Assembly (NCBI RefSeq): GCF_900465355.1 | Contig: NZ_LS483254.1 | Span: 1,116,001 to 1,180,000 of the forward strand | Length of the DNA: 64,000 nucleotides | Direction: 5' to 3' | Source: Candidatus Bipolaricaulis anaerobius | Lineage (GTDB): Bacteria > Bipolaricaulota > Bipolaricaulia > Bipolaricaulales > Bipolaricaulaceae | Part shown: positions 14,790 through 28,216 of the stretch, piece by piece | Position numbering within the stretch: position 1 is the first letter of the stretch | How the letters are laid out: every line of letters begins with the position of its first letter | Made by a program: the position numbers and the translations under genes | Notes under the pieces: model-generated | What the model saw: the letters and a program-made list of their open reading frames with translations, nothing else | The model's database searches: none | What the model was told of the DNA's origin: nothing

Positions 14790-14818
14790 TTGCCCCGTTC
14801 CACGCCTCCCGGTATATT
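14790..14818 (+). promoter_or_regulatory. Promoter of the tRNA-tuf-rpl-rpoB super-operon
   Basis: A -35 TTGCCC (14790-14795) and a -10 TATATT (14813-14818) are separated by 17 nt. The first tRNA starts 42 nt after the -10. This is a good sigma-70-type promoter for the tRNA and translation operon. Confidence 0.7.
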
Positions 14819-14860: not shown

Positions 14861-14933
14861 GCCAGTGTAGCTCAATTGGCAGAGCATCCGCCTTGTAAGC
14901 GGAAGGTTGCCCGTTCGATTCGGGCCACTGGCT
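14861..14933 (+). tRNA. tRNA-Thr (TGT)
   Basis: A complete cloverleaf: acceptor GCCAGTG pairs with CACTGGC, the anticodon loop is CTTGTAA with TGT at 14894-14896, and the T-loop is TTCGATT. The 3' CCA is not encoded. It is the first gene of the tRNA-tuf operon. Confidence 0.95.
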
Positions 14934-14996
14934 CAAATCGGTGCCTCAGCTACCGGCCCGCGGAGGCGGCACCGACACCCGGAGAACCGGTTGCCC

Positions 14997-15083
14997 GGAG
15001 GGGTAGCAAAGTGGTCAAACGCACCGGGCTGTAAACCCGGCGGCCTGAGGCCTTCGGGGGTTCGAATCCCTCCCCCTCCACCA
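14997..15083 (+). tRNA. tRNA-Tyr (GTA)
   Basis: A class II tRNA with a long variable arm; acceptor GGAGGGG pairs with CCCCTCC, anticodon GTA at 15031-15033, T-loop TTCGAAT, and an encoded 3' CCA. The order Thr-Tyr-Thr-tuf resembles the tufB tRNA cluster of proteobacteria, without the tRNA-Gly. Confidence 0.95.
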
Positions 15084-15127
15084 TGACTTGCGCGCCATGG
15101 GCGCGGTAGGGTAGACTGTGCCTCCTC

Positions 15128-15200
15128 GCCCGTGTAGCTCAGTCGGCAGAGCACTTCCTTGGTAAGGAAGAGGCCGTCGGTTCGATTCCGACCGCGGGCT
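15128..15200 (+). tRNA. tRNA-Thr (GGT)
   Basis: Acceptor GCCCGTG pairs with CGCGGGC with one G-U pair; the anticodon stem CTTCC/GGAAG holds loop TTGGTAA with GGT at 15161-15163. CCA is not encoded. It lies 74 nt upstream of tuf. Confidence 0.95.
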
Positions 15201-15274: not shown

Positions 15275-16489
15275 ATGGCAAAGGAACAATTCGTACGAAC
15301 GAAGCCGCACGTCAACATCGGCACGATCGGGCACATCGACCACGGTAAGACGACCCTGACCGCGGCGATCACGAAGGTGCTCGGGCTCAAGGGGCTGGCC
15401 AAGCAGCGGTCCTACGACGAAGTCGCGAAGGCCGATGCGAAGCTATTCCGCCGTGATGCGACGAAGATCCTCACCGTGAACGTGGCCCACGTTGAGTACG
15501 AAACGGATACCCGCCACTACGCGCACATCGACTGCCCGGGGCACCAAGACTACATCAAGAACATGATCACCGGCGCCGCGCAGATGGACGGGGCGATCCT
15601 CGTCGTTTCGGCGGCCGATGGGCCGATGCCGCAGACCCGCGAGCACGTGGTGCTCGCCCGCCAAGTGAACGTTCCGGCGATCGTCGTCTTCCTGAACAAG
15701 GTGGACCTCGTCGATGACCCTGACCTGGTGGACCTCGTCGAGATCGAGATCCGCGATCTCCTCTCCAAGTACGAGTTCCCCGGCGACAAAACGCCCATCA
15801 TCCGCGGGTCGGCATCGAAGGCGCTCACGGTGGAGTCGCCGGATGACCCGGCCGCCAAGCCGATCCTCGACCTGATGGATGCCGTGGACAGCTTCATCCC
15901 GCTCCCGAAGCGCGAGGAGGACAAGCCTTTCCTGATGCCGATCGAGGACATCTTCTCCATCAAGGGCCGCGGCACGGTCGTCACCGGCCGCGTGGAGCGG
16001 GGCCGGATCACCCCCGGGGCGGAAGTGGAGATCGTCGGGCTCACGGACGAGATCCGCAAGACCGTCGCCACGAGCCTCGAGATGTTCAACAAGACCCTCG
16101 ACGAGGCGATCGCCGGGGACAACGTGGGGATCCTCCTCCGCGGCATCGAAAAGGACGAGGTGGAGCGCGGACAGGTGCTCGCCGCACCTGGCTCGATCAC
16201 CCCCCATACGGAGTTCGAGGCCCAGGTGTACGTCCTGTCCAAGGATGAAGGAGGGCGGCACAGCCCGTTCTTCAACGGCTACAAACCGCAGTTCTACTTC
16301 ACGACCACCGACGTGACCGGTGAGGTCCAGCTCCCACCGGGGGTGGAGATGGTCATGCCCGGCGACAACGTGGATCAGCTGCGGTGCAAGCTCATGAAGC
16401 ACATCGCGATGTCGGAGGGCCTGCGGTTCGCGATCCGCGAGGGCGGGCGCACCGTCGGGGCGGGCGTGGTGACGAAGATCATCAAGTGA
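15275..16489 (+). CDS. tuf: Elongation factor Tu
   Basis: A 404-residue EF-Tu that delivers aminoacyl-tRNA to the ribosome. It starts [28 protein letters not shown] with a normal P-loop (GHIDHGKT), G3 DCPGHQDY and G4 NKVD. Domains 2 and 3 follow ([24 protein letters not shown]). ATG 15275 has GAGGAGG a few bases upstream. The length is slightly above E. coli EF-Tu because of a short insertion after the switch regions. It sits behind three tRNAs and before rpmG, all on one strand. Confidence 0.98.
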
Positions 16490-16706: not shown

Positions 16707-16782
16707 AGGCCCGTAGCTCAAGTGGCAGAGCGGCGGACTCCAAATCCGCAGGCTGGGGGTTCAAGTCCTCCCGGGCCTGCCA
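16707..16782 (+). tRNA. tRNA-Trp (CCA)
   Basis: Acceptor AGGCCCG pairs with CGGGCCT, discriminator G, encoded 3' CCA. The anticodon loop is CTCCAAA with CCA at 16740-16742. It lies between rpmG and secE, the usual place for tRNA-Trp. Confidence 0.95.
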
Positions 16783-16795
16783 GCGAGGGAAGAGG

Positions 16796-16987
16796 ATGAA
16801 TGCGATGCAGAGGGTCCGGAACTACCTGACGTCCGTCCGGACGGAGGTCGCTCGGGTGAGCTGGCCATCGCGCAAGGAAGTGGTGAGCCTGACCGTGCTC
16901 ATCATCATCCTGTCCGTGGTGCTGGGGGTCTACCTCGGGCTCGCCGACCTGATCATCACCCAGATCCTCCGCCTCCTCCTCAGCTAA
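16796..16987 (+). CDS. secE: Preprotein translocase subunit SecE
   Basis: A 63-residue single-span membrane protein. The amphipathic part ends in the conserved ARVSWPSRKEV, followed by one transmembrane helix (about 30-56, rich in L, I and V). SecE clamps SecY in the Sec channel. ATG 16796 follows GAGGGAAGAGG. It lies between tRNA-Trp and nusG, as in most bacteria. Confidence 0.93.
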   Translation: MNAMQRVRNYLTSVRTEVARVSWPSRKEVVSLTVLIIILSVVLGVYLGLADLIITQILRLLLS

Positions 16988-16997
16988 GGTATCCACG

Positions 16998-18107
16998 ATG
17001 CAACGGAAGCGGTGGTACGCCATCCAGACGTACGCGGGTTCGGAATTGCGCCTCAAGCACCAGCTCGAGGAGCGGGTCCGCAACCTGGGTTGGGAGCGGC
17101 AGTTCGAGCCATTGCGCACCGGAGAGGAGGAGGAGTTCTTCTTCGTCCCGGTGGAGGAGGTGGTCACGTCCCGTTCGGGGAGGGGCCGCGCGAGCGAGTA
17201 CCGCATCCCCTACGACTACGACCTGCTGGTGGCGAACAATGAGCGTGTCCAGCGGGGCGATGTGATCGCCCGCCGCCCCCCCACCCACCTCGCCCGCCCC
17301 GCGGAGGTGGTGGCGATGGAACCCCTGTGGCGGGTGGTGGTGGAGACCCCCACCCACGCTGAGATCGAATACCTGGTCCCTCAGGAGAAGGGGTTGCGCC
17401 GCGATGTGCGGGTCGGGGAACGGACCCGGCCGGGCCTGCCGCTCACGGTGGACTCCGACGACCGCTACACCGCCGGCGAGCGCGGGGAGATCGTGGCTCG
17501 GGAGAGGGTGAAGCGCGTCACGCTGCGCTACGGGGACGGGACAGAGGAAACGCGGATCATCCCTGAGGCCTACCTCCATCCCCAGGTCCGCGTGGGGGCA
17601 GCCCTGGACGAGGGGGCGGAGATCGAGCGGGAACACAAGATCCAGGCCCGTGCCTCGGGCCTCGTCAAGGTCAAGGAGTACAAGGACAAGCGCGAGGTAT
17701 CCGTGCAACGGATCGAGAAACGGCGGTTGATCCCGGGGTACGTGTTCACCAAGATGGGCCTCGACGAGGAGGAGATGTTCGAGCTCCTCCGGGGCCTGGA
17801 GCGGTCGGCGCGGTTCGTGGGGAGCAAGACCCGGCCCGTGCCGATCGAGGGCCCGGAGATCCTGCTCGTGCAGCGCAAGGCGGGCCTCGTGGAGACCCCC
17901 CAGGCCGCGGAGGCAGCGAAGGCGCCGCGGGTCGAGGTCGAGTTCGAGGTGGGAGAGGTCATCCAGATCGTGGAGGGGCCGTTCGCCGACTTCACGGGCG
18001 AGATCCGCGAGATCGACAAGGAAGCCGAGGAAGCGGTGGTCATGGTGAAGATCTTCGGGCGGGAGACGCCGGTCCGCATTTCGTTCGACGGAATCGAGAA
18101 GGTGTAA
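16998..18107 (+). CDS. nusG: Transcription factor NusG with large NGN-domain insertion
   Basis: A 369-residue NusG, about twice the usual length. The NGN domain starts [12 protein letters not shown] and resumes at RRLIPGYVF (about residue 242). Residues ~60-235 are an insertion rich in beta strands, with turns such as VQRGDVIAR and [13 protein letters not shown] that recall barrel-sandwich folds. The KOW domain (about 317-369) has [10 protein letters not shown]. Thermotoga maritima NusG is known to carry a large insertion at the same place. NusG binds RNA polymerase, affects pausing and couples transcription to translation. It lies 10 nt after secE and before rplK. Confidence 0.93.
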
Positions 18108-18117
18108 GGAGACGACG

Positions 18118-18546
18118 GTGGCGAAACAACAGGTGGCGAAGATCAAGCTCCAGATCCCGGCCGGGCAGGCCAACCCCGCCCCCCCGGTGGGACCGGCGCT
18201 CGGGGAGCACAAGGTCAACATCATGGACTTCTGCAAGAAGTTCAACGAGGCGACGAAGGGAGAGGAGCCCGGCCTCATCATCCCCGTGGAGATCACGGTG
18301 TACACGGACCGCTCATTCGACCTCACGTTGAAGCAGCCGCCGGTGGCGGTCCTCCTCCGCAAGGCAGCGGGGGTGGACAAGGGTTCACCGACCGCGAAGC
18401 GGTTGCGGGTGGGACGGGTGAGCATGGAACAGGTGCGCCGGATCGCGGAGCGGAAGCTCCCCGATCTCAACACGGATGACCTCGCGGCGGCGATCCGGAT
18501 GGTGGTGGGCACGGCGGAGAACATGGGGCTCGAGGTGGTGCCATGA
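18118..18546 (+). CDS. rplK: 50S ribosomal protein L11
   Basis: A 142-residue L11 with the N-terminal [15 protein letters not shown] and [10 protein letters not shown] signatures and the RNA-binding C-terminal half. Start GTG 18118 follows AAGGAG. It overlaps rplA by 4 nt. Confidence 0.97.
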
Positions 18547-19250
18547 AGCGCAGCCGAAGTTACGAGGCGAAGGTCGCCCTCCTGGAGCGGGAGAAGGCCT
18601 ACCCCGTCCGCGAGGCGATCGAGCTCCTCAAGAAGACGAGCACCGCCAAGTTCCCGGAGACGGCGGAGGCCGCGATCGTGCTCGGGATCAACCCCTCGCA
18701 GCACCAGGTGCGGGGGACCTGTGCACTCCCTCATGGGACGGGCAAGGCGGTGCGGGTGCTCGTGTTCGCCCGCGGGGAGAAGGTCCGCGAGGCGGAGGCC
18801 GCGGGGGCCGACTACGCGGGGGGGGAGGAGCTCGCCGAGAAGATCCAGAAGGAAGGGTGGCTTGAGTTCGAGCGGGTGGTCGCCACCCCGGACATGATGT
18901 CGGTCGTGGGAAAGCTGGGGAAGATCCTCGGCCCCCGTGGCCTCATGCCCTCCCCGAAGACCAACACCGTGACGATGGACGTCGCGGCGGCGGTGCGGGA
19001 ACTGAAGGCGGGGATGATCGAGTTCCGTGCGGATCGGGCGGGGATCGTCCATTCCATTTTCGGCAAGACGGATTTCACGGCCGAGGCGCTCCAGGAGAAC
19101 CTGGTCGCCCTCATCCGCGCCGTGCTCGAACGGAAGCCGGAGGGAGTGCGGGGACGGTACATCCAGCGCGTGTTCATCTCCGCGACGATGGGACCGGGGA
19201 TCCGCGTGGACGAGACGGACCTCCTCGCCGCCGCACAGAGGAAGGGGTGA
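18543..19250 (+). CDS. rplA: 50S ribosomal protein L1
   Basis: A 235-residue L1 of the ribosomal stalk. It has the signatures VRVLVFARG and [18 protein letters not shown] 18543 overlaps the rplK stop. In other bacteria L1 represses its own operon; no clear repeat of its rRNA site was found in the leader here. Confidence 0.97.
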
Positions 19251-19255
19251 GGGAG

Positions 19256-19780
19256 ATGCCGCGACAGGAGAAGGTGGCGGCGGTGGAGGACCTGCGGGAG
19301 AGGCTGTCCCGCGCTCGGGCTGTGGTGATCGTGGACTACCGCGGGCTCTCCGGCCCAGACGTGACGGCCCTGCGCCGATTCGTCCGCAAGCAGGGGGTCG
19401 AACTGCGGGTCGTCAAGAACACCCTGACCCGCATCGCGGCGAGCGAGGCCGGGCTCAAGGGCTTCCCCACGAACCTCACCGGCACGAACGCCCTCCTCAT
19501 GGGGGAAGGGGATCCCGCCGTCCCGTTTCGCGTGGCGCGGGAATGCGCCCGGCGCTACCCCCAGCTCAAGGTGAAGGCGGGGGTGTTCGATGACCTGCCG
19601 GTCTCGGCAGAAGAGGCGGATTGGTACGCGACCCTTCCCACACGGGAGGAACTCCTTGGGCGGTTGGCGGGGGCCCTCGCTGGCCCCATCCGGGGGCTCG
19701 CGGTCGCGCTGTCCGGGGTCACGCGCAAGTTCGCGGTGGCGCTCTCGGAAGTCCAAAAGAAGAAAGGAGCGGAGGGATAG
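19256..19780 (+). CDS. rplJ: 50S ribosomal protein L10
   Basis: A 174-residue L10, the base of the L7/L12 stalk. It has VVIVDYRGLS and LRVVKNTLTRIA. ATG 19256 gives the family start (MPRQEKVAAVEDL); a GTG at 19247 that overlaps the rplA stop is the alternative. Confidence 0.95.
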   Translation: MPRQEKVAAVEDLRERLSRARAVVIVDYRGLSGPDVTALRRFVRKQGVELRVVKNTLTRIAASEAGLKGFPTNLTGTNALLMGEGDPAVPFRVARECARRYPQLKVKAGVFDDLPVSAEEADWYATLPTREELLGRLAGALAGPIRGLAVALSGVTRKFAVALSEVQKKKGAEG

Positions 19781-19783
19781 ACG

Positions 19784-20158
19784 ATGACAAAGGAAGAGTT
19801 TCTCCAAGCGATCGAACAGATGACGGTGAAGGACCTCGCCGAGCTCGTGTCGGCGATCGAGGAGCGGTTCGGCGTGTCGGCGCAGGTGGCGGCCCCGGTG
19901 GCCGTGGCCACCGCGGCCCCGGCCGCGGACGCTGCTGCCCAGGCGAAGTCCACGGTGGACGTCGTCCTCACGAACGCGGGTCAGCAGAAGATCCAGCTCA
20001 TCAAGGTCGTGAAGGACATCACCGGGAAGGGCCTCAAGGAGTGCAAGGACCTCGTGGACAAGCTCCCTGCGGTGATCAAGGCCGGGGTGAGCCCGGAGGA
20101 AGCCGACGACATCCAGAAGAAGCTCGTCGCCGCCGGCGCCGAAGTCGAGCTCCGCTAG
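19784..20158 (+). CDS. rplL: 50S ribosomal protein L7/L12
   Basis: A 124-residue L7/L12. It has the N-terminal dimer helix (LIKVVKD comes later), an Ala/Pro-rich hinge (about 43-60), and the C-terminal factor-binding domain with [12 protein letters not shown] and [11 protein letters not shown]. It follows rplJ by 3 nt and has AAGGAG before its ATG. Confidence 0.97.
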
Positions 20159-20177: not shown

Positions 20178-23100
20178 TTGGCCCAGCCTAGTCACGCTCG
20201 ACGCGGATACGGACGAGCCCGGCGGTGGAGCGAACCGCCGGCCCTCATCTCCGATCAGGTTGCGTCCTATGAGCAGTTCCTGCGCCAGGGCATCGCCGCT
20301 GCCTTTGCCGCGGTGAGCCCGATTCGCGCTCCCAATCGGGATCGCCTCTATATCGAGCTCGTCGACCCCCTGTTGGGGGAGCCGCGCTACGATGAGTGGG
20401 AGTGCCGGGACAAGGACCTCTCCCTCGCCGTGCCCCTCAAGGCCACCGGCCGCCTGTGGGAGGAGGGGCAGCTGCGGCAGGAGGCGGAGCTGTACCTGGT
20501 GGAGATCCCGCTCATGACGCCGCGGGGGACGTTCGTGATCAACGGCACGGAGAACGTCCTCGTCAACGAGCTCATCCGTTCGCCGGGGGTGTACATCACC
20601 CAGGAGGAGCCCCACCTCTACCGCGCCCACTTCCTTCCCGAGTCGGGGGCGTGGCTCGAGCTCGACCTGGACACGAAACGGTGGACGCTGCGCGCCAACC
20701 TCGACCGGCGGGGCAAGGTGCCCGTGACGACCCTCCTCCGCGCGGTCGGCCTCGCCGAACAGGAGATCCTCACCCAGTACGCCGTGACGGTGCCGGTGGA
20801 GGACCTCCCGGAGCGCCTCGCCCTGTGGAAGCGAGCGACGCTCGCCGAGGCCATCGCCGCCGGTGATGCGGAATGGAAGCCGGGCGAGGAGATCACCCCC
20901 GAACGGGCGGCGGCCCTCGTGCGCCTGGGGAAGTCCCGGGTCCGCCTCGTCCACCCGGCGATCGCCAAGTCGCTTGACGAAGAACATGAGAAGCGGATCA
21001 CGACCCAGGAGGAGGCGGCCCGCTACATCTACCTCCGGCTCCGCTCCGGGGAGAGGGTGACCTCCACCCAGGCATTCGAATACCTGCACAACCTGTACTT
21101 CAACCCGGAAACGTACCGGCTGACCCATGTCGGCCGGTTCAAGGTCAACCGCAAGCTTGGCCTGACGGGCGAGGAAACCTGCCTCACCCCGCCGGACCTG
21201 TTCGAAGCGCTCGCGCTCCTCCTCCGCACGCCCGAGGATCCATCCCTCGTGGACGAGACGGACCACCTGGCCAACAAGCGGGTCCGCCTCCCCGGGGAGC
21301 AAGCCCAGATGGCGTTGCGGGAGGGCCTGACCCGCATGGCGCGCATCGCCCAGGACAAGCTGTCCCACTACGACCCGGAGGACAAGGATGCCCTGCGCCG
21401 CATCGTCTCCGCCCGGACGATCCAGGCCTCGCTGAACTACCTCTTCTACACGGGGCGCCTGTCCCAGTTCCTCGAGCAGACGAACCCGCTCTCCGAGCTC
21501 ACCCACAAGCGCCGCTTGTCGGCCCTGGGGAGCCTCACCGCGCGGCGGGCGAAGATCGAGATCCGCGACGTCCACGCCTCCCACTACGCCCGGATCTGCC
21601 CCATCGAGACCCCAGAGGGCCAGAACATCGGGCTCATCACGTCGCTCGCGCTCCACGCTCGGGTCAACGACTACGGGTTCCTGGAGGCGCCGTACGTGGT
21701 GGTGAAGGGCGGGCGGGTCACGGGAGAGATCCGGTACCTCATGGCCGATGACGAGCGGCAGTACAGGATTGCCCCCGCCACGATCTCCATCGGAAAAGAC
21801 GGGCGGATCGTGGACACGCGCGTCCAGGTGCGTACCGGAAACGAGGAGGTCCACTTCGTATCTCCGGAGGAGGTGGACTTCGTCGAGGTGGCCCCGGACA
21901 TCATCGTCGGGGCATCGGCGGCCCTGATCCCGTTCCTCGAACACGACGATGCCAACCGGGCCCTGATGGGCGCGAACATGCAACGGCAGGCGGTGCCCCT
22001 CCTCCGCCCGGAGAGCCCCCTCGTGGGGACGGGCCTCGAGGGCAAGGCCGCGCGCGACTCAGGGGCGACCCTCCTCGCGGAGGAGGGCGGGAGCGTGGCC
22101 TACGTCGACGCGCAGCGGATCGAGGTCAAGGGGAAGAAGGAGACGAAGGCCTACCGTCTCCTCAACTACGAGCGCTCAAACCAGGATACAATCCTGCACC
22201 AGTGCCCCGCGGTCCGGATCGGGGACAAGGTGAAGCGGGGAGACGTGCTCGCCGACAGCCAATCCTCCGTGAACGGGGAGCTCGCCCTGGGGACGAACCT
22301 CCTTGTCGGGTTCCTCCCGTTCGAGGGGTACAACTACGAGGACGCGATCGTCCTCTCCGAGAAGCTGGTGCGGGAGAACCGCCTCGACTCGATCCACATC
22401 CAGGAGTTCGAGGTCCGCGCCGAGGAGACGAAGCTCGGGCCGGAGGAGATCACGGCCGACATCCCCAACATCTCGCGGGAGGCGCTCCGCAACCTGGACG
22501 AGCACGGGATCGTGCGCGCGGGGACCGAGGTCCAGACGGGGGATGTCCTCGTGGGGAAGATCACCCCCCGCGGGGAGGCCGAGCCAACGCCGGAGGAGCG
22601 GATCTTCCGGTCCATCTTCGGGGAGCGGATGCGCAACTTCAAGAACACGTCGCTCAAGATGCCCCCCATCTCCGGCACGGCGACCGTGATCCGCGTCAAG
22701 CGGATGTCCCGCGCCGCGGGGGACGAGCTCGAGGCCGGGGTCAACGAGCTCGTCAAGGTCTACGTCGCCCAGCGACGGCGGATCGCAGTGGGGGACAAGC
22801 TCGCCGGCCGCCACGGGAACAAGGGCGTGATCTCCGCGATCCTCCCCGACGAGGACATGCCGTTCCTGCCGGATGGCACGCACCTCGACGTGGTCCTGAA
22901 CCCGCTTGGTGTCCCGTCGCGCATGAACCTGGGCCAGATCTTCGAGGCCAACTTGGGGTGGCTCGCCGCCCTGCGGGGGGAAACGGTCGCCTCCCCGGTG
23001 TTCGACGGCGCCCGGGAGGAGGAGATCCTGACCGATCTCACCCAGGCCCTCGTCGAGCACGGCCTTGCCGATGGAAAGCAGTTCGATGGGAAGGTCGTGT

Positions 23101-23519
23101 TGCGGGATGGCCGCACCGGGGAACCGTTCCAGGCGCCGATCACGGTCGGCGTGCTCTACCTCCTCAAACTCGAACACATCGCTGCGGAGAAGATCCATGC
23201 CCGCTCCACTGGCCCGTACGCCCTCATCACCCAGCAACCGTTGGGGGGCAAGGCCCAGTTCGGAGGCCAGCGGCTGGGGGAGATGGAGGTGTGGGCCCTC
23301 GAGGCCTACGGCGCGTCTGCCCTCCTTCAGGAGATGGTGACCCTCAAGTCGGATGACGTGAAGGGGCGCGTTCAGCTGTACAAGGCGATCCTGCGCGGGG
23401 AGGACTTCCCCCGACCCGGCATCCCCGAGTCGTTCCGCGTCCTGTGGCAGGAGCTACGGTGCCTCGGGCTATCCGCCAAGGCCTACGACGAGGCCGACCG
23501 AGAACTGGAGATCGTGTGA
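20178..23519 (+). CDS. rpoB: RNA polymerase beta subunit
   Basis: A 1113-residue beta subunit, short like those without lineage-specific inserts. The rifampicin region reads SQFLEQTNPLSELTHKRRLS. Other signatures are ETPEGQNIGLI, the NTP-site GRHGNKGVIS, and KAQFGGQRLGEMEVWALEAYG near the end. The start is TTG 20178, with GGAAGGA ahead of it; no ATG or GTG in frame gives the expected N-terminus. Normally rpoC follows directly. Here the stop is followed 4 nt later by a NUDIX gene, and rpoC is nowhere in the window. Confidence 0.97.
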   Translation: MAQPSHARRGYGRARRWSEPPALISDQVASYEQFLRQGIAAAFAAVSPIRAPNRDRLYIELVDPLLGEPRYDEWECRDKDLSLAVPLKATGRLWEEGQLRQEAELYLVEIPLMTPRGTFVINGTENVLVNELIRSPGVYITQEEPHLYRAHFLPESGAWLELDLDTKRWTLRANLDRRGKVPVTTLLRAVGLAEQEILTQYAVTVPVEDLPERLALWKRATLAEAIAAGDAEWKPGEEITPERAAALVRLGKSRVRLVHPAIAKSLDEEHEKRITTQEEAARYIYLRLRSGERVTSTQAFEYLHNLYFNPETYRLTHVGRFKVNRKLGLTGEETCLTPPDLFEALALLLRTPEDPSLVDETDHLANKRVRLPGEQAQMALREGLTRMARIAQDKLSHYDPEDKDALRRIVSARTIQASLNYLFYTGRLSQFLEQTNPLSELTHKRRLSALGSLTARRAKIEIRDVHASHYARICPIETPEGQNIGLITSLALHARVNDYGFLEAPYVVVKGGRVTGEIRYLMADDERQYRIAPATISIGKDGRIVDTRVQVRTGNEEVHFVSPEEVDFVEVAPDIIVGASAALIPFLEHDDANRALMGANMQRQAVPLLRPESPLVGTGLEGKAARDSGATLLAEEGGSVAYVDAQRIEVKGKKETKAYRLLNYERSNQDTILHQCPAVRIGDKVKRGDVLADSQSSVNGELALGTNLLVGFLPFEGYNYEDAIVLSEKLVRENRLDSIHIQEFEVRAEETKLGPEEITADIPNISREALRNLDEHGIVRAGTEVQTGDVLVGKITPRGEAEPTPEERIFRSIFGERMRNFKNTSLKMPPISGTATVIRVKRMSRAAGDELEAGVNELVKVYVAQRRRIAVGDKLAGRHGNKGVISAILPDEDMPFLPDGTHLDVVLNPLGVPSRMNLGQIFEANLGWLAALRGETVASPVFDGAREEEILTDLTQALVEHGLADGKQFDGKVVLRDGRTGEPFQAPITVGVLYLLKLEHIAAEKIHARSTGPYALITQQPLGGKAQFGGQRLGEMEVWALEAYGASALLQEMVTLKSDDVKGRVQLYKAILRGEDFPRPGIPESFRVLWQELRCLGLSAKAYDEADRELEIV

Positions 23520-23523
23520 TCCT

Positions 23524-23958
23524 ATGCCGGACGAACGCGCGTCCGGGGTGATCCTGTTCCGCACCACGCCGGCAGGGCGCCACTACCTCATCATCAAGAA
23601 CAGGATCGGCGGGCACTGGGGGTTCCCCAAGGGGCGCCTCGAACCGGGGGAGGACGAGCTCCAGGCCGCGCTGCGGGAGGTCAGGGAGGAGGTTCGGATC
23701 ACCCGCCTCAACTTGCGGCCGGAGTTCAGGGAGCGCCTCGCGTACCGGTTCGTCCGCGACCGGGAGGTCGTGAACAAGGAGGTCACCCTATTCCTCGCCG
23801 CGACGGATGAGGAGGGGATCGCGGAGGGAAGCGAGATTATGGCCCTGGAATGGCTCCCCCTGCCGCAAGCGCTGGCGCGGCTGACCTATCCTGAGCAGCG
23901 GACCGCCCTCCTCCGTGCTGACGCGTTCCTCCAGGCGCTCCCCCGCGCGGAGGGGTGA
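23524..23958 (+). CDS. NUDIX hydrolase, Ap4A-hydrolase-like
   Basis: A 144-residue NUDIX protein. GHWGFPKGRLEPGED leads into the Nudix box with REVREE, which supplies the metal-binding glutamates. The box's usual final Gly is Arg (EEVRI instead of ExxGU). The GFPKG form is typical of bis(5'-nucleosyl)-tetraphosphatases, which remove the alarmone Ap4A. It occupies the place of rpoC, 4 nt after rpoB, and is likely co-transcribed. Exact substrate is inferred. Confidence 0.85.
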   Translation: MPDERASGVILFRTTPAGRHYLIIKNRIGGHWGFPKGRLEPGEDELQAALREVREEVRITRLNLRPEFRERLAYRFVRDREVVNKEVTLFLAATDEEGIAEGSEIMALEWLPLPQALARLTYPEQRTALLRADAFLQALPRAEG

Positions 23959-23964
23959 CCGAAC

Positions 23965-25263
23965 GTGGGCTGGCCCGTCCTCGCCTCGGCGCTCGCCATC
24001 TTCGCCGCTTCGTACGCCCTCATCTTCTCCGGGTACGTCCACCGCGCGCTGGCCGCCCTCGTCGGTGCGGTGACGATGATCGTGGCCGGAAGCGCCCTCG
24101 GGTTCTACCCTTACCACGCGGCGGTGGCGAGCATCGACATGGACACGTTGTGGCTCCTGTTCGGGATGATGGCCATCGTCGGGCTGCTCCGGGAGACCGG
24201 GTTCTTCCAGTACATCGCGATCCGGGCGGCAAAGATCGCGCGCGGCAACCTGACCATCCTCTTCCTGTCGCTGGGGGCCGCTACCGCGATCGCCTCGATG
24301 TTCCTCGACAACGTAACCACCCTCCTCACCGTGGTCCCGGTAACGATCTCCGTGACCGAGGTGCTAGGCATCCCCGCGGGGCCCCTCCTCCTCATGGAGG
24401 CGATGGCCTCCAACATCGGGGGGACCGCGACCCTCATCGGTGATCCGCCGAACATCCTCATCGGGTCAGCGGCGGGGCTCTCGTTCAACGCGTTTCTCAC
24501 CCACACCCTGCCCGTGGCCCTCGTCGTTTTCGCAGCCGCGATGGCATTCCTCCTCGCCCGGTTCCGGCGGCTGGCTACCCCCCACGCCGCGGACGTGGAG
24601 GCGGTGATGGCGATGGATGAGCGCCGGGCGCTCACCCACCCCCAGGCAATGGGGAAGCTGGTGGCCGTGCTGGGCCTCGTGTTCGCCCTGTTCGCTTCCC
24701 ACAGCGCCCTCGGCCTCACCCCAGGCGTGGTCGCCCTCGTCGGGGCGGCTCTGTGCGCCCTCATCGTTCGCCCAAACGTGGAGGCGTTCCTGCACGGCGT
24801 GGAGTGGGACCTCCTCATCTTCCTCGCCTCCCTCCTCGTGCTCACGGGCGGGCTCGAGGCGAGCGGGGCCCTGGCCGTGGTCGGCCGGTGGACGGTGAGC
24901 CTCGCCGGCGGGTCCACGCTCCTCCTGGCGCTGATCCTCCTCTGGGTGGGGGCTGGCCTGAGCTGGGTCCTGAGCGCGATTCCGACCACGGTAACCCTCG
25001 CCGCCGTCGTGCGGGGCCTGGCGGGGACGGGGATCCCCCTCACCCCCCTGTGGTGGGCCCTTGCCCTTGGGATCGGACTGGGAGCGAACGGCACCCCACT
25101 GGGCTCAGCGGCAAACATGGTCCTCATCTCCATCGCTGACCGAACCCACCAGGGAGTGAAGGCCCGGGCCTGGTTCCGCGACGGGATCCCGGTGGCCCTC
25201 CTTTCCTGCCTGATCGCCAGTGCCTTCCTCTGGTTGGGGATCGCTACGGGGTGGTTCCTGTGA
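23965..25263 (+). CDS. ArsB/NhaD-type ion transporter
   Basis: A 432-residue membrane protein with about 10-12 hydrophobic segments. The motifs FLDNVTTLLTVVPV and NIGGTATLIGDPPN are characteristic of the ArsB/NhaD/P-protein ion-transporter superfamily, and GLGANGTPLGSAANMV is the matching second repeat. Members export arsenite or exchange Na+ and H+. There is no arsenic gene nearby, so Na+/H+ exchange is a reasonable but unproved guess. Start GTG 23965; it overlaps the next gene by GTGA. Confidence 0.85.
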   Translation: MGWPVLASALAIFAASYALIFSGYVHRALAALVGAVTMIVAGSALGFYPYHAAVASIDMDTLWLLFGMMAIVGLLRETGFFQYIAIRAAKIARGNLTILFLSLGAATAIASMFLDNVTTLLTVVPVTISVTEVLGIPAGPLLLMEAMASNIGGTATLIGDPPNILIGSAAGLSFNAFLTHTLPVALVVFAAAMAFLLARFRRLATPHAADVEAVMAMDERRALTHPQAMGKLVAVLGLVFALFASHSALGLTPGVVALVGAALCALIVRPNVEAFLHGVEWDLLIFLASLLVLTGGLEASGALAVVGRWTVSLAGGSTLLLALILLWVGAGLSWVLSAIPTTVTLAAVVRGLAGTGIPLTPLWWALALGIGLGANGTPLGSAANMVLISIADRTHQGVKARAWFRDGIPVALLSCLIASAFLWLGIATGWFL

Positions 25264-26156
25264 CGGCCCTCCCGTTGACCGAGGTTCACCCCGCGGTGTG
25301 GCTCCTCGACGTGGACCAGTTCGGCGCCCCCCGCCAAGGCGGCGTCTACATCCTCCCTGGAAAGCCAACGGCCCTCGTCGAGGCGGGGACCTCGCTCGCC
25401 CGCGACCGGATCCTCGCCGCGTTGGCCCACCTCGGGATCGCCCGTGAGGACGTGGGGTGGATCTTCCTCACCCACATCCATCTCGACCACGCCGGGGGTG
25501 CAGGGGGGCTCCTCCAGGAGCTTCCGCAAGCGCGCGCCGTCGTGCATGCGCGGGGGGCGCGCCATCTCGTGGACCCAGCACGGCTCGTCGCCTCGGTGAG
25601 GGAGGCGGCCCGCGATCGGTTCCCCCTCTACGGGACGATGGACCCGGTCCCCGCGGGGCGCCTCCACGTGGCCCAGGATGGGGAGGTGTTCCCCGGGGGG
25701 CGGTTCCGCCTCCGGGCCGTGGATGCGCCGGGACACGCCCCCCACCACCTGTGCTACTTCGCTGACGGGGAAAGTCTCCTCTTCACCGGGGACGCCGTCG
25801 GGCTGTACCTGGGGGGGGTGCTCCTTCCATCCACCGTCCCCCCGCGCTTCGACCTCGAGGCGTCGCTCGCTACACTGCGCCGCCTCGCCGACCTCGACCC
25901 GCGGCTGCTCCTCTTCACCCACTTCGGGCCCGGGTCCCCCGATCTCCTCTCCCAGTACGCCCGCCTCCTCCCGGCGTGGGTGGAGCGGGTGAGGCAGCTG
26001 GGGCGGGGCCCGGTCGCGGAGGAGGAGCTCGTAGCGAGCGTCGTGGCCGAGGCAGCCAGGGAGGGCCTGATCCCGCCGGGCCCCGCCCGGGGCGACCTCG
26101 CGATGGCCGTCCGTGGCGTGCTCGGCTACCTCCGCCAACGGGAGGGCACGGCGTGA
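25260..26156 (+). CDS. MBL-fold metallo-hydrolase
   Basis: A 298-residue metallo-beta-lactamase-fold protein. The zinc motif HIHLDH is near residue 78, followed by APGHAPHH, FTGDAVG and FTHFGPG at the expected spacing for a two-metal site. The group resembles glyoxalase II/lactonase-like hydrolases of unknown substrate. GTG 25260 overlaps the transporter stop and the gene overlaps priA at its end (GTGA). Confidence 0.8.
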   Translation: MTALPLTEVHPAVWLLDVDQFGAPRQGGVYILPGKPTALVEAGTSLARDRILAALAHLGIAREDVGWIFLTHIHLDHAGGAGGLLQELPQARAVVHARGARHLVDPARLVASVREAARDRFPLYGTMDPVPAGRLHVAQDGEVFPGGRFRLRAVDAPGHAPHHLCYFADGESLLFTGDAVGLYLGGVLLPSTVPPRFDLEASLATLRRLADLDPRLLLFTHFGPGSPDLLSQYARLLPAWVERVRQLGRGPVAEEELVASVVAEAAREGLIPPGPARGDLAMAVRGVLGYLRQREGTA

Positions 26157-28216
26157 TCGCGCGGGTGGCCCTTCCCGTCCCCCGGGCCGCCCCGTTCGAC
26201 TACGAGGTCCCGCCGGATCTAGCCGTGGCGATCGGCGATCGCGTGCGCGTCCCGTTTGGAACGCGTCACATGTGGGGGATCGTGGTGGAGCTCGCCCACG
26301 AGCCCGCGTTCTCAGGGCGCCTCCTCCCGATCGAAGCCACGTCGGGCCCTGCTCTACCCGGTTCGGCCCTGGAGCTCATCGCCGCGGTCGCCCGTCAGTC
26401 GTTCGTAGGCCACGGCCTCGCGCTGGCCCGGCTCGTCCCTCCTCCGAGCCGAAGCCGAGCGAGGGAGGTGGAGCTGGCCCTATCTCCCGACGCCGCCCCC
26501 CCGCCGATGGCCGCGCTCCCCAGCCCCTCTCAGGCGCGGGTCCTCGCCGCCGTCGCGGCGGGGACGACCGAAGTCAGGGAGCTGCGGAAGCTCCCCGGCG
26601 GGAGCCGGGCCGTGGGCTCCCTCCTCCGCGCCGGGATCCTCCGCCCGCGGCGACTCCCGTTCTCGTACCGGGAAGAGGGCAATGCGATCACGCTTCACCC
26701 GCGCCAGGGGGAAGCGGTGGAGGCGATCCGGGCTGGGATCGGCCACGGCCGGGTGTACCTCCTGTTCGGGCCCCCGGGGTCGGGGAAGACCGAGGTCTAC
26801 CTCCGTTCCGCCGCCGAGGGGCGGACCAAGGGCACAACCTCGCTCCTCCTCGCCCCGGAGGTATCCCTCCTCCCCCAGCTGTGGGCGCGGGCGGCGCGCG
26901 TCCTCGGCTCCCCGCCGGAGACCTACTTCGGGGAGCTCCCGCCGGGGGAGAGGTGGCGGACGTGGGACGGTGCGCAGCGGGGCGAGGTCCGGTGTGCGGT
27001 GGGCACACGATCGGCGGCATTCCTCCCCCTCCCGAACCTGGGCCTGATCGTCCTCGATGAGGAAGGGGAGCCCTCCTACAAGCAGGAGGAGATGGCACCC
27101 TACTACCATGCCCGCACCGTGGCCGAGCTGCGGGCGGAGCGGGAGGGGGCAGCGGTGGTCCTCGGCGCGGCCGCGCCCTCCGTCGAAACCTACTTTCGTG
27201 CCGAACGGGGAGAGATCGGGCTCCTCCCCCTCCCGGACCGCGTCGTCGGCGCTCCCCCCGCGGTCCGCGTCGCCCCGCGGGGGGACGACGTGATCGGCCC
27301 CATCCTCGCCGAGGCGATGGGGCGCCACCTCGCCCGGGGTGGCCAGGTCCTCCTCTTCATCAACCGCCGTGGGTTCTACACCGGCGCGGCTTGTCGCTGC
27401 CGCGCGATCCTCCGGTGCCCCCAGTGCCAGATCCCCCTCGTGTTCCACCTCTCCGAGCGGGCCTTCCGGTGCCACGCCTGCGGGAGGGTGGTGCGGGATC
27501 CGTCGTGCCCGAACTGCGGGGAGACGCGCTTCCACCTGTTCGGGGCGGGGACGGAACGGGCCGAACACGAGGCGAAGCGGCTCTTCCCTCAGGCCACCGT
27601 GGCCCGCCTCGACGCCGACACGGCGCGGGATCGGGACCGCATCCTCTCCTCCGTCGCCCGCGGCGAGGTCCAGATCCTCGTCGGGGCGCAGATGGTGGGG
27701 AAGGGCCTCGATTTCCCGGGGATCTCCCTCGTCGGGATCCTGAACGCTGACCAGCTCCTCTCCGTCCCCGACTTCCGTGCCGGGGAACGGACCTACCAGC
27801 TCATCGCCGGGGCCGCAGGCCGGGCCGGGCGAGGCGAGCGCCCCGGCGAGGTGATCGTGCAGTCCGACCAGCCGGACTACTACGCGATCCGCTCTGCCCT
27901 GGCCGGGGACTACACGGCCTTCTACATGGAGGAAATGAAGTACCGGGAGAGCCTGCGCTACCCCCCGTTCTCCCGCCTCGTGCGGTTGATCGCCACCGGC
28001 CGGGAAGCCGAAGCGAAGGCCGGATCCCTGGCGGAAGACCTCAGCGGGCACGGGTTCGAGGTCCTCGGGCCGGCCCGCCTCTTCCCCCGCCGCGGGGTCC
28101 CCCGCGCCCAGCTCCTCGTGCGGGGAAGAAGGGACGTGGTGGATCTCCTCGCCCATGCCCTTCCCCACCTCCCGCCGTGGCTACGGGTGGATCCTGACCC
28201 GATGTGGCTCGGCTAG
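26153..28216 (+). CDS. priA: Primosomal protein N' (PriA) with altered helicase motifs
   Basis: A 687-residue PriA, which reloads the replicative helicase at stalled forks. The DNA-binding N-terminus starts VIARVALPVPRAAPFDYEVP. Walker A is GPPGSGKTEVYL. Motif II reads D302-E-E-G305 instead of DEEH, and motif III reads GAAAP (338-342) instead of GSATP. The zinc-binding cysteines are all present (CRCRAILRCPQC; CHACGRVV; CPNC). Motif V/VI region (GAQMVGKGLDFPG) is kept. The start is GTG 26153. The stop shares the palindrome CTAG with the convergent ferritin-like gene. Helicase activity may be weakened; fork binding should remain. Confidence 0.9.
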   Translation: MIARVALPVPRAAPFDYEVPPDLAVAIGDRVRVPFGTRHMWGIVVELAHEPAFSGRLLPIEATSGPALPGSALELIAAVARQSFVGHGLALARLVPPPSRSRAREVELALSPDAAPPPMAALPSPSQARVLAAVAAGTTEVRELRKLPGGSRAVGSLLRAGILRPRRLPFSYREEGNAITLHPRQGEAVEAIRAGIGHGRVYLLFGPPGSGKTEVYLRSAAEGRTKGTTSLLLAPEVSLLPQLWARAARVLGSPPETYFGELPPGERWRTWDGAQRGEVRCAVGTRSAAFLPLPNLGLIVLDEEGEPSYKQEEMAPYYHARTVAELRAEREGAAVVLGAAAPSVETYFRAERGEIGLLPLPDRVVGAPPAVRVAPRGDDVIGPILAEAMGRHLARGGQVLLFINRRGFYTGAACRCRAILRCPQCQIPLVFHLSERAFRCHACGRVVRDPSCPNCGETRFHLFGAGTERAEHEAKRLFPQATVARLDADTARDRDRILSSVARGEVQILVGAQMVGKGLDFPGISLVGILNADQLLSVPDFRAGERTYQLIAGAAGRAGRGERPGEVIVQSDQPDYYAIRSALAGDYTAFYMEEMKYRESLRYPPFSRLVRLIATGREAEAKAGSLAEDLSGHGFEVLGPARLFPRRGVPRAQLLVRGRRDVVDLLAHALPHLPPWLRVDPDPMWLG

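Follow-up and report, generated by a model that had tools for sequence, protein, structure and literature searches.

Separation of rpoB and rpoC throughout the Bipolaricaulota by a break at their ancestral junction

The genes for the β and β' subunits of RNA polymerase, rpoB and rpoC, rank among the best-conserved neighbouring genes of bacteria and often serve to illustrate selection for stoichiometric co-expression. In Candidatus Bipolaricaulis anaerobius, rpoB is followed instead by a gene for a NUDIX hydrolase. Where is rpoC, how and when did the two genes part, and what does their separation mean for the making of the polymerase? The window, the whole stretch of 64,000 nucleotides that was analysed (G000:C1:1116001-1180000), comes from a genome of a single contig of 1,324,338 bp, 96.9% complete, with dnaA at 178.7 kb. 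We searched 100 Bipolaricaulota genomes from 9 families and 39 genera and compared the neighbourhoods of 40 rpoB and 40 rpoC loci from relatives, spanning most genera; counts of rpoB loci out of 41 are these 40 and the window.

The rpoB half of the cluster begins with three tRNA genes, tRNA-Thr, tRNA-Tyr and tRNA-Thr (14861..15200, +), and a putative sigma-70-type promoter, P1 (TTGCCC-17-TATATT, 14790..14818, +), lies 42 nt upstream of the first. The three tRNAs are kept immediately 5' of tuf in nearly all relatives, an arrangement that brings to mind the tufB operon of E. coli. Next come tuf itself (EF-Tu, 15275..16489, +), identified by sequence and with orthologues 70-97% identical in relatives, rpmG (L33, 16491..16652, +), read from the sequence, a further tRNA (16707-16779), secE (16796..16987, +), assigned by position and sequence, and a long form of nusG (16998..18107, +; PF02357, PF18298, PF00467). 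The encoded NusG has 369 aa, and with its extra domain (PF18298, NusG_add) it resembles the long NusG of Thermotoga. As in the canonical operon, rplK, rplA, rplJ and rplL (18118..20158, +), each above its NCBIfam cut-off, stand 5' of rpoB (20178..23519, +; 1113 aa), which scored 1348 bits (cut-off 896) and 1327 bits (cut-off 801) against the NCBIfam rpoB models. The break point, the ancestral rpoB/rpoC junction, is now a gap of 4 nt (23520..23523, +). Pfam and NCBIfam matches bear out the order that the first-pass annotation had read beyond it: an Ap4A-hydrolase-like NUDIX gene (23524..23958, +; PF00293, 64 bits), a CitMHS-family ion transporter (23965..25263, +; PF03600), an MBL-fold hydrolase (25251..26156, +; PF00753) and priA (26150..28216, +; TIGR00595, above cut-off). 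A search of this region and seven related loci with Rfam at the gathering threshold gave tRNAs only and no leader RNA, the L10 leader included, and a scan for intrinsic terminators near rpoB did no better than on shuffled sequence.

The window was said to contain no rpoC, and this is correct: a search of the genome placed the gene, complete and encoding 1642 aa, at C1:635776-640704 (+), about 0.5 Mb from rpoB on the same contig. Both rpoB and rpoC are full-length intact reading frames above their family cut-offs, and neither is a pseudogene. An internal TGA stop had been reported in rpoC of three relatives (G002, G008 and G010), but the one case that was checked, G010, proved to be the normal end of the gene after 1640 residues. 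The order on the rpoC side is CCA transferase, HerA, HPF, gene X, zinc ribbon, rpoC, rpsL, rpsG, fusA, rpsJ and rplC. Gene X (L003:8483-9454) had no family match in Pfam, and the zinc-ribbon gene (L003:9520-9747; 75 aa, PF09723) is of the FmdB type. In the window's genome one unbroken run on a single strand extends from rpoC over S10, spc and alpha as far as rpoA-rplQ. Of the 36 loci whose sequence reaches far enough beyond rpoC, 33 have the canonical succession of rpoC, rpsL (S12), rpsG (S7) and fusA, and on to S10 and L3; the three that do not (L195, L196 and L197) are all from family f3, in which rpoC seems to have been relocated a second time. The zinc-ribbon gene precedes rpoC in 33/41 loci, and in two or three of the other eight the sequence is too short to show it. 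Family f6 (L160, L162, L176) has neither the NUDIX gene 3' of rpoB nor the zinc-ribbon gene 5' of rpoC.

This separation extends across the phylum. rpoB and rpoC were each matched in 98 of the 100 genomes and were adjacent in none, so that the canonical arrangement, with rpoC directly 3' of rpoB on the same strand, was not seen. As most relatives are fragmented metagenome-assembled genomes (MAGs), the long-range distance is available only for the four genomes in which both genes lie on one contig, 61-664 kb apart: 495 kb in the window's genome, 664 kb in G009, 342 kb in G075 and 61 kb in G094. G009 is a second single-contig genome of the window's genus, with about 90% protein identity. On the rpoB side the relatives have tuf, secE, nusG, L11, L1, L10, L12, rpoB and the NUDIX gene, often followed by CitMHS, MBL and priA. 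The comparison of rpoB neighbours that the first-pass annotation had proposed found the NUDIX gene in 35 of the 40 relatives as well as in the window, in eight of the nine families. Gene order agrees between families at both loci, and this conserved order on either side shows that the ancestral cluster broke cleanly, exactly at the rpoB/rpoC junction. Each half thus has the genes of the canonical bacterial cluster in the same order. The Bipolaricaulota cluster differs from the canonical one in being cut precisely between rpoB and rpoC, with the halves hundreds of kilobases apart in the one-contig genomes, in having tuf nowhere but at the start of the rpoB half, and in its new neighbours, a predicted promoter and zinc-ribbon gene 5' of rpoC and the genes from nudix to priA 3' of rpoB.

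In most loci the NUDIX gene starts no more than 10 nt from the rpoB stop or overlaps rpoB, which suggests that it is probably translationally coupled to rpoB. The protein has the NUDIX domain and a NUDIX box (GRLEPGEDELQAALREVREEVRI) that fits GX5EX7REUXEEXGU with one deviation: close to its end an R stands where the consensus and most relatives have G. In the PDB it comes nearest to Chlamydia CT771 and to Ap4A hydrolases of animals (C. elegans and human), which outrank MutT and RppH (E values of 1e-16 to 1e-9, from sequence alone), and a putative Ap4A-type label is reasonable by sequence. The suggestion that this enzyme has taken the place of rpoC is not supported. rpoC, rpsL, rpsG and fusA left as a block and the NUDIX gene is just the first one past the break; in family f6, moreover, it is missing, yet rpoB and rpoC are not reunited. 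It is a conserved neighbour of rpoB and no functional replacement for rpoC.

Are the two halves transcribed separately? We scored sigma-70 matches over 12 hexamer positions, with 16-18 nt spacing, and took Markov sequences as controls. P1, 5' of the first tRNA, had a mean of 9.8 against 5.3 in the controls, with a P1-type site of at least 9/12 matches in 30 of 34 relatives, and P2, 5' of the zinc-ribbon (fmdB) gene before rpoC, had a mean of 8.75/12 against 5.43 over 40 loci; both consensuses were sought by matching in related genomes, and the counts are not independent. The predicted P2 is situated some 50 nt 5' of the zinc-ribbon gene; in the window's genome it reads TTGATC-16-TATAAT and was the only match, shuffled sequences giving 0.0. 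The 12 gene-start regions from tuf to priA had means of 3.7-6.6 against controls of about 5, none clearly off background (nusG was highest, at 6.6 against 5.2, and rpoB gave 4.0 against 5.3), in a scan that would miss a promoter of another sigma type nearer rpoB. Each half therefore appears to have its own conserved sigma-70-type promoter, as predicted from sequence, and separate transcription of the rpoB and rpoC halves is a well-supported prediction. In the closed genomes the distance between the two genes makes co-transcription impossible. The earlier proposal that the two largest subunits are under separate control thus gains support from two conserved predicted promoters, one for each half.

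Taken as a whole, the best explanation, which we hold with considerable confidence, is that an ancestral cluster was cut at rpoB/rpoC and that its halves have since been on two separate promoters. The upstream block (tRNA-Thr/Tyr/Thr, tuf, rpmG, secE, nusG, rplKAJL and rpoB) would have gained nudix, with or without CitMHS and MBL, and priA downstream; the downstream block (rpoC, rpsL, rpsG, fusA, and S10 to alpha with rpoA) would have gained the FmdB-type zinc-ribbon gene and a promoter upstream. β would then be expressed from P1, before the tRNAs, and β' from P2, before the zinc-ribbon gene, both of them sigma-70-type. With two separate promoters, β' would probably be made with S12, S7, the S10 proteins and α, and β with L11-L12. 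This picture builds on gene positions, their conservation, the direction of change and promoter conservation, all of which were observed in the analysis. It supposes that P1 and P2 are active and that each drives its whole operon, and the balance of β and β' may be held by a like response of both operons to growth rate.

Breaks of this kind have to be set against those in other bacteria. The first-pass annotation had called a split of rpoB from rpoC rare, a view that stands for most bacteria and has to be qualified for a few groups. Wherever the sequence suffices, rpoC follows rpoB in 80 named loci of other bacteria, except on two MAG contigs (L036 and L054). Some Chloroflexota and some spirochaete MAGs do show splits or insertions. 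Among 24 from the spirochaete family to which L054 belongs, 7 have no rpoC within about 1.5 kb, and at least 2 of these carry inserted genes 3' of rpoB. One Chloroflexota genome (L311) has a homing-endonuclease-like open reading frame between the two genes, and in 3 of 27 testable Chloroflexota genomes (G171, G184 and G194; loci L315, L318 and L320) rpoB is followed by rpsL, rpsG and fusA and rpoC lies elsewhere, in G171 on the same contig at a distance of 2.65 Mb. The two genes are non-adjacent in these three genomes, as in the Bipolaricaulota. However, in these Chloroflexota rpoC moved alone and rpoB kept rpsL-rpsG-fusA, whereas in Bipolaricaulota the str operon stayed with rpoC and was lost from rpoB; the two splits are independent events. 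A departure of another kind from the two-gene unit is the fusion of rpoB and rpoC in Helicobacter and Wolinella, Wolbachia and some Patescibacteria, where a single polypeptide is made, the opposite of two separate operons. The Bipolaricaulota split is thus a phylum-fixed variant of operon break-up and not a new kind of thing. Our literature search, which covered open-access papers only, found no description of it.

Such sporadic breaks make it somewhat more likely than not that the rearrangement was neutral and without regulatory meaning, both operons having the constitutive co-regulation usual for ribosomal operons and the site of the break being a matter of chance. Brandis (2021, PMC8046335) lists 115 cases from two bacterial groups in which this cluster was rearranged, and P1 and P2 both resemble ordinary sigma-70 sites. 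Fixation across the phylum and the retention of both new junctions point the other way, to a stable arrangement, though they are not evidence of adaptation. A functional split, in which two operons under independent control govern the assembly of the polymerase and the coupled NUDIX enzyme removes Np4A-type caps or initiating nucleotides that the polymerase adds to RNA under stress, seems improbable. If it were true, β' would be tied to α, S12, S7 and S10 and β to L11-L12, with the NUDIX enzyme working alongside RNA polymerase.

Whatever its meaning, the split has a clear direction. For 37 genomes, one of them from Thermotogota, quick maximum-likelihood trees were built of both RpoB and RpoC; they placed Thermotogota as sister of Bipolaricaulota in both cases (SH-aLRT 99 for RpoB and 100 for RpoC), with similar branching inside Bipolaricaulota. 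Thermotogota share with Bipolaricaulota a very long RpoC (1680 aa in Thermotogae genome L107, compared with 1642) and a long NusG with an additional domain. Unlike Bipolaricaulota they keep the two genes side by side, with rpoC immediately 3' of rpoB in 30/30 genomes. Because Thermotogota keep the pair together and the RpoB and RpoC trees agree, the split is derived on the Bipolaricaulota stem, old and vertically inherited. The MAG Thermotogae ADurb.Bin062 (L237-L240) has two rpoC genes, one adjoining rpoB and the other without rpoB upstream, a case of either duplication or contamination. The same data bear on gene replacement, in which the native rpoC was lost and a foreign one, alone or together with the str operon, was gained elsewhere. 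The altered rpoC neighbourhood, with its new upstream gene, would fit such an event, but the common sister group and similar branching of the two trees, and the ancestral downstream neighbours rpsL-rpsG-fusA-S10 still attached to rpoC, make it very unlikely.

An assembly or binning artefact, in which a misjoin near 23520 would conceal that rpoB and rpoC are neighbours in the cell, has next to no chance of being right: the relatives are mostly fragmented MAGs and the window lacks rpoC, but the rpoB-nudix junction recurs in 36/41 loci from independent assemblies, the second one-contig genome G009 included, and many independent assemblies share the fmdB-rpoC-rpsL junction, so that the misassembly first feared at this point is excluded. 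The rpoB/rpoC split is real, phylum-wide and ancient.

As a phylum-defining rearrangement, the split can be used in checking the assignment of MAGs and in placing Bipolaricaulota beside Thermotogota. A phylum that lives with the pair divided is also a natural experiment on whether the linkage of rpoB and rpoC is needed at all.
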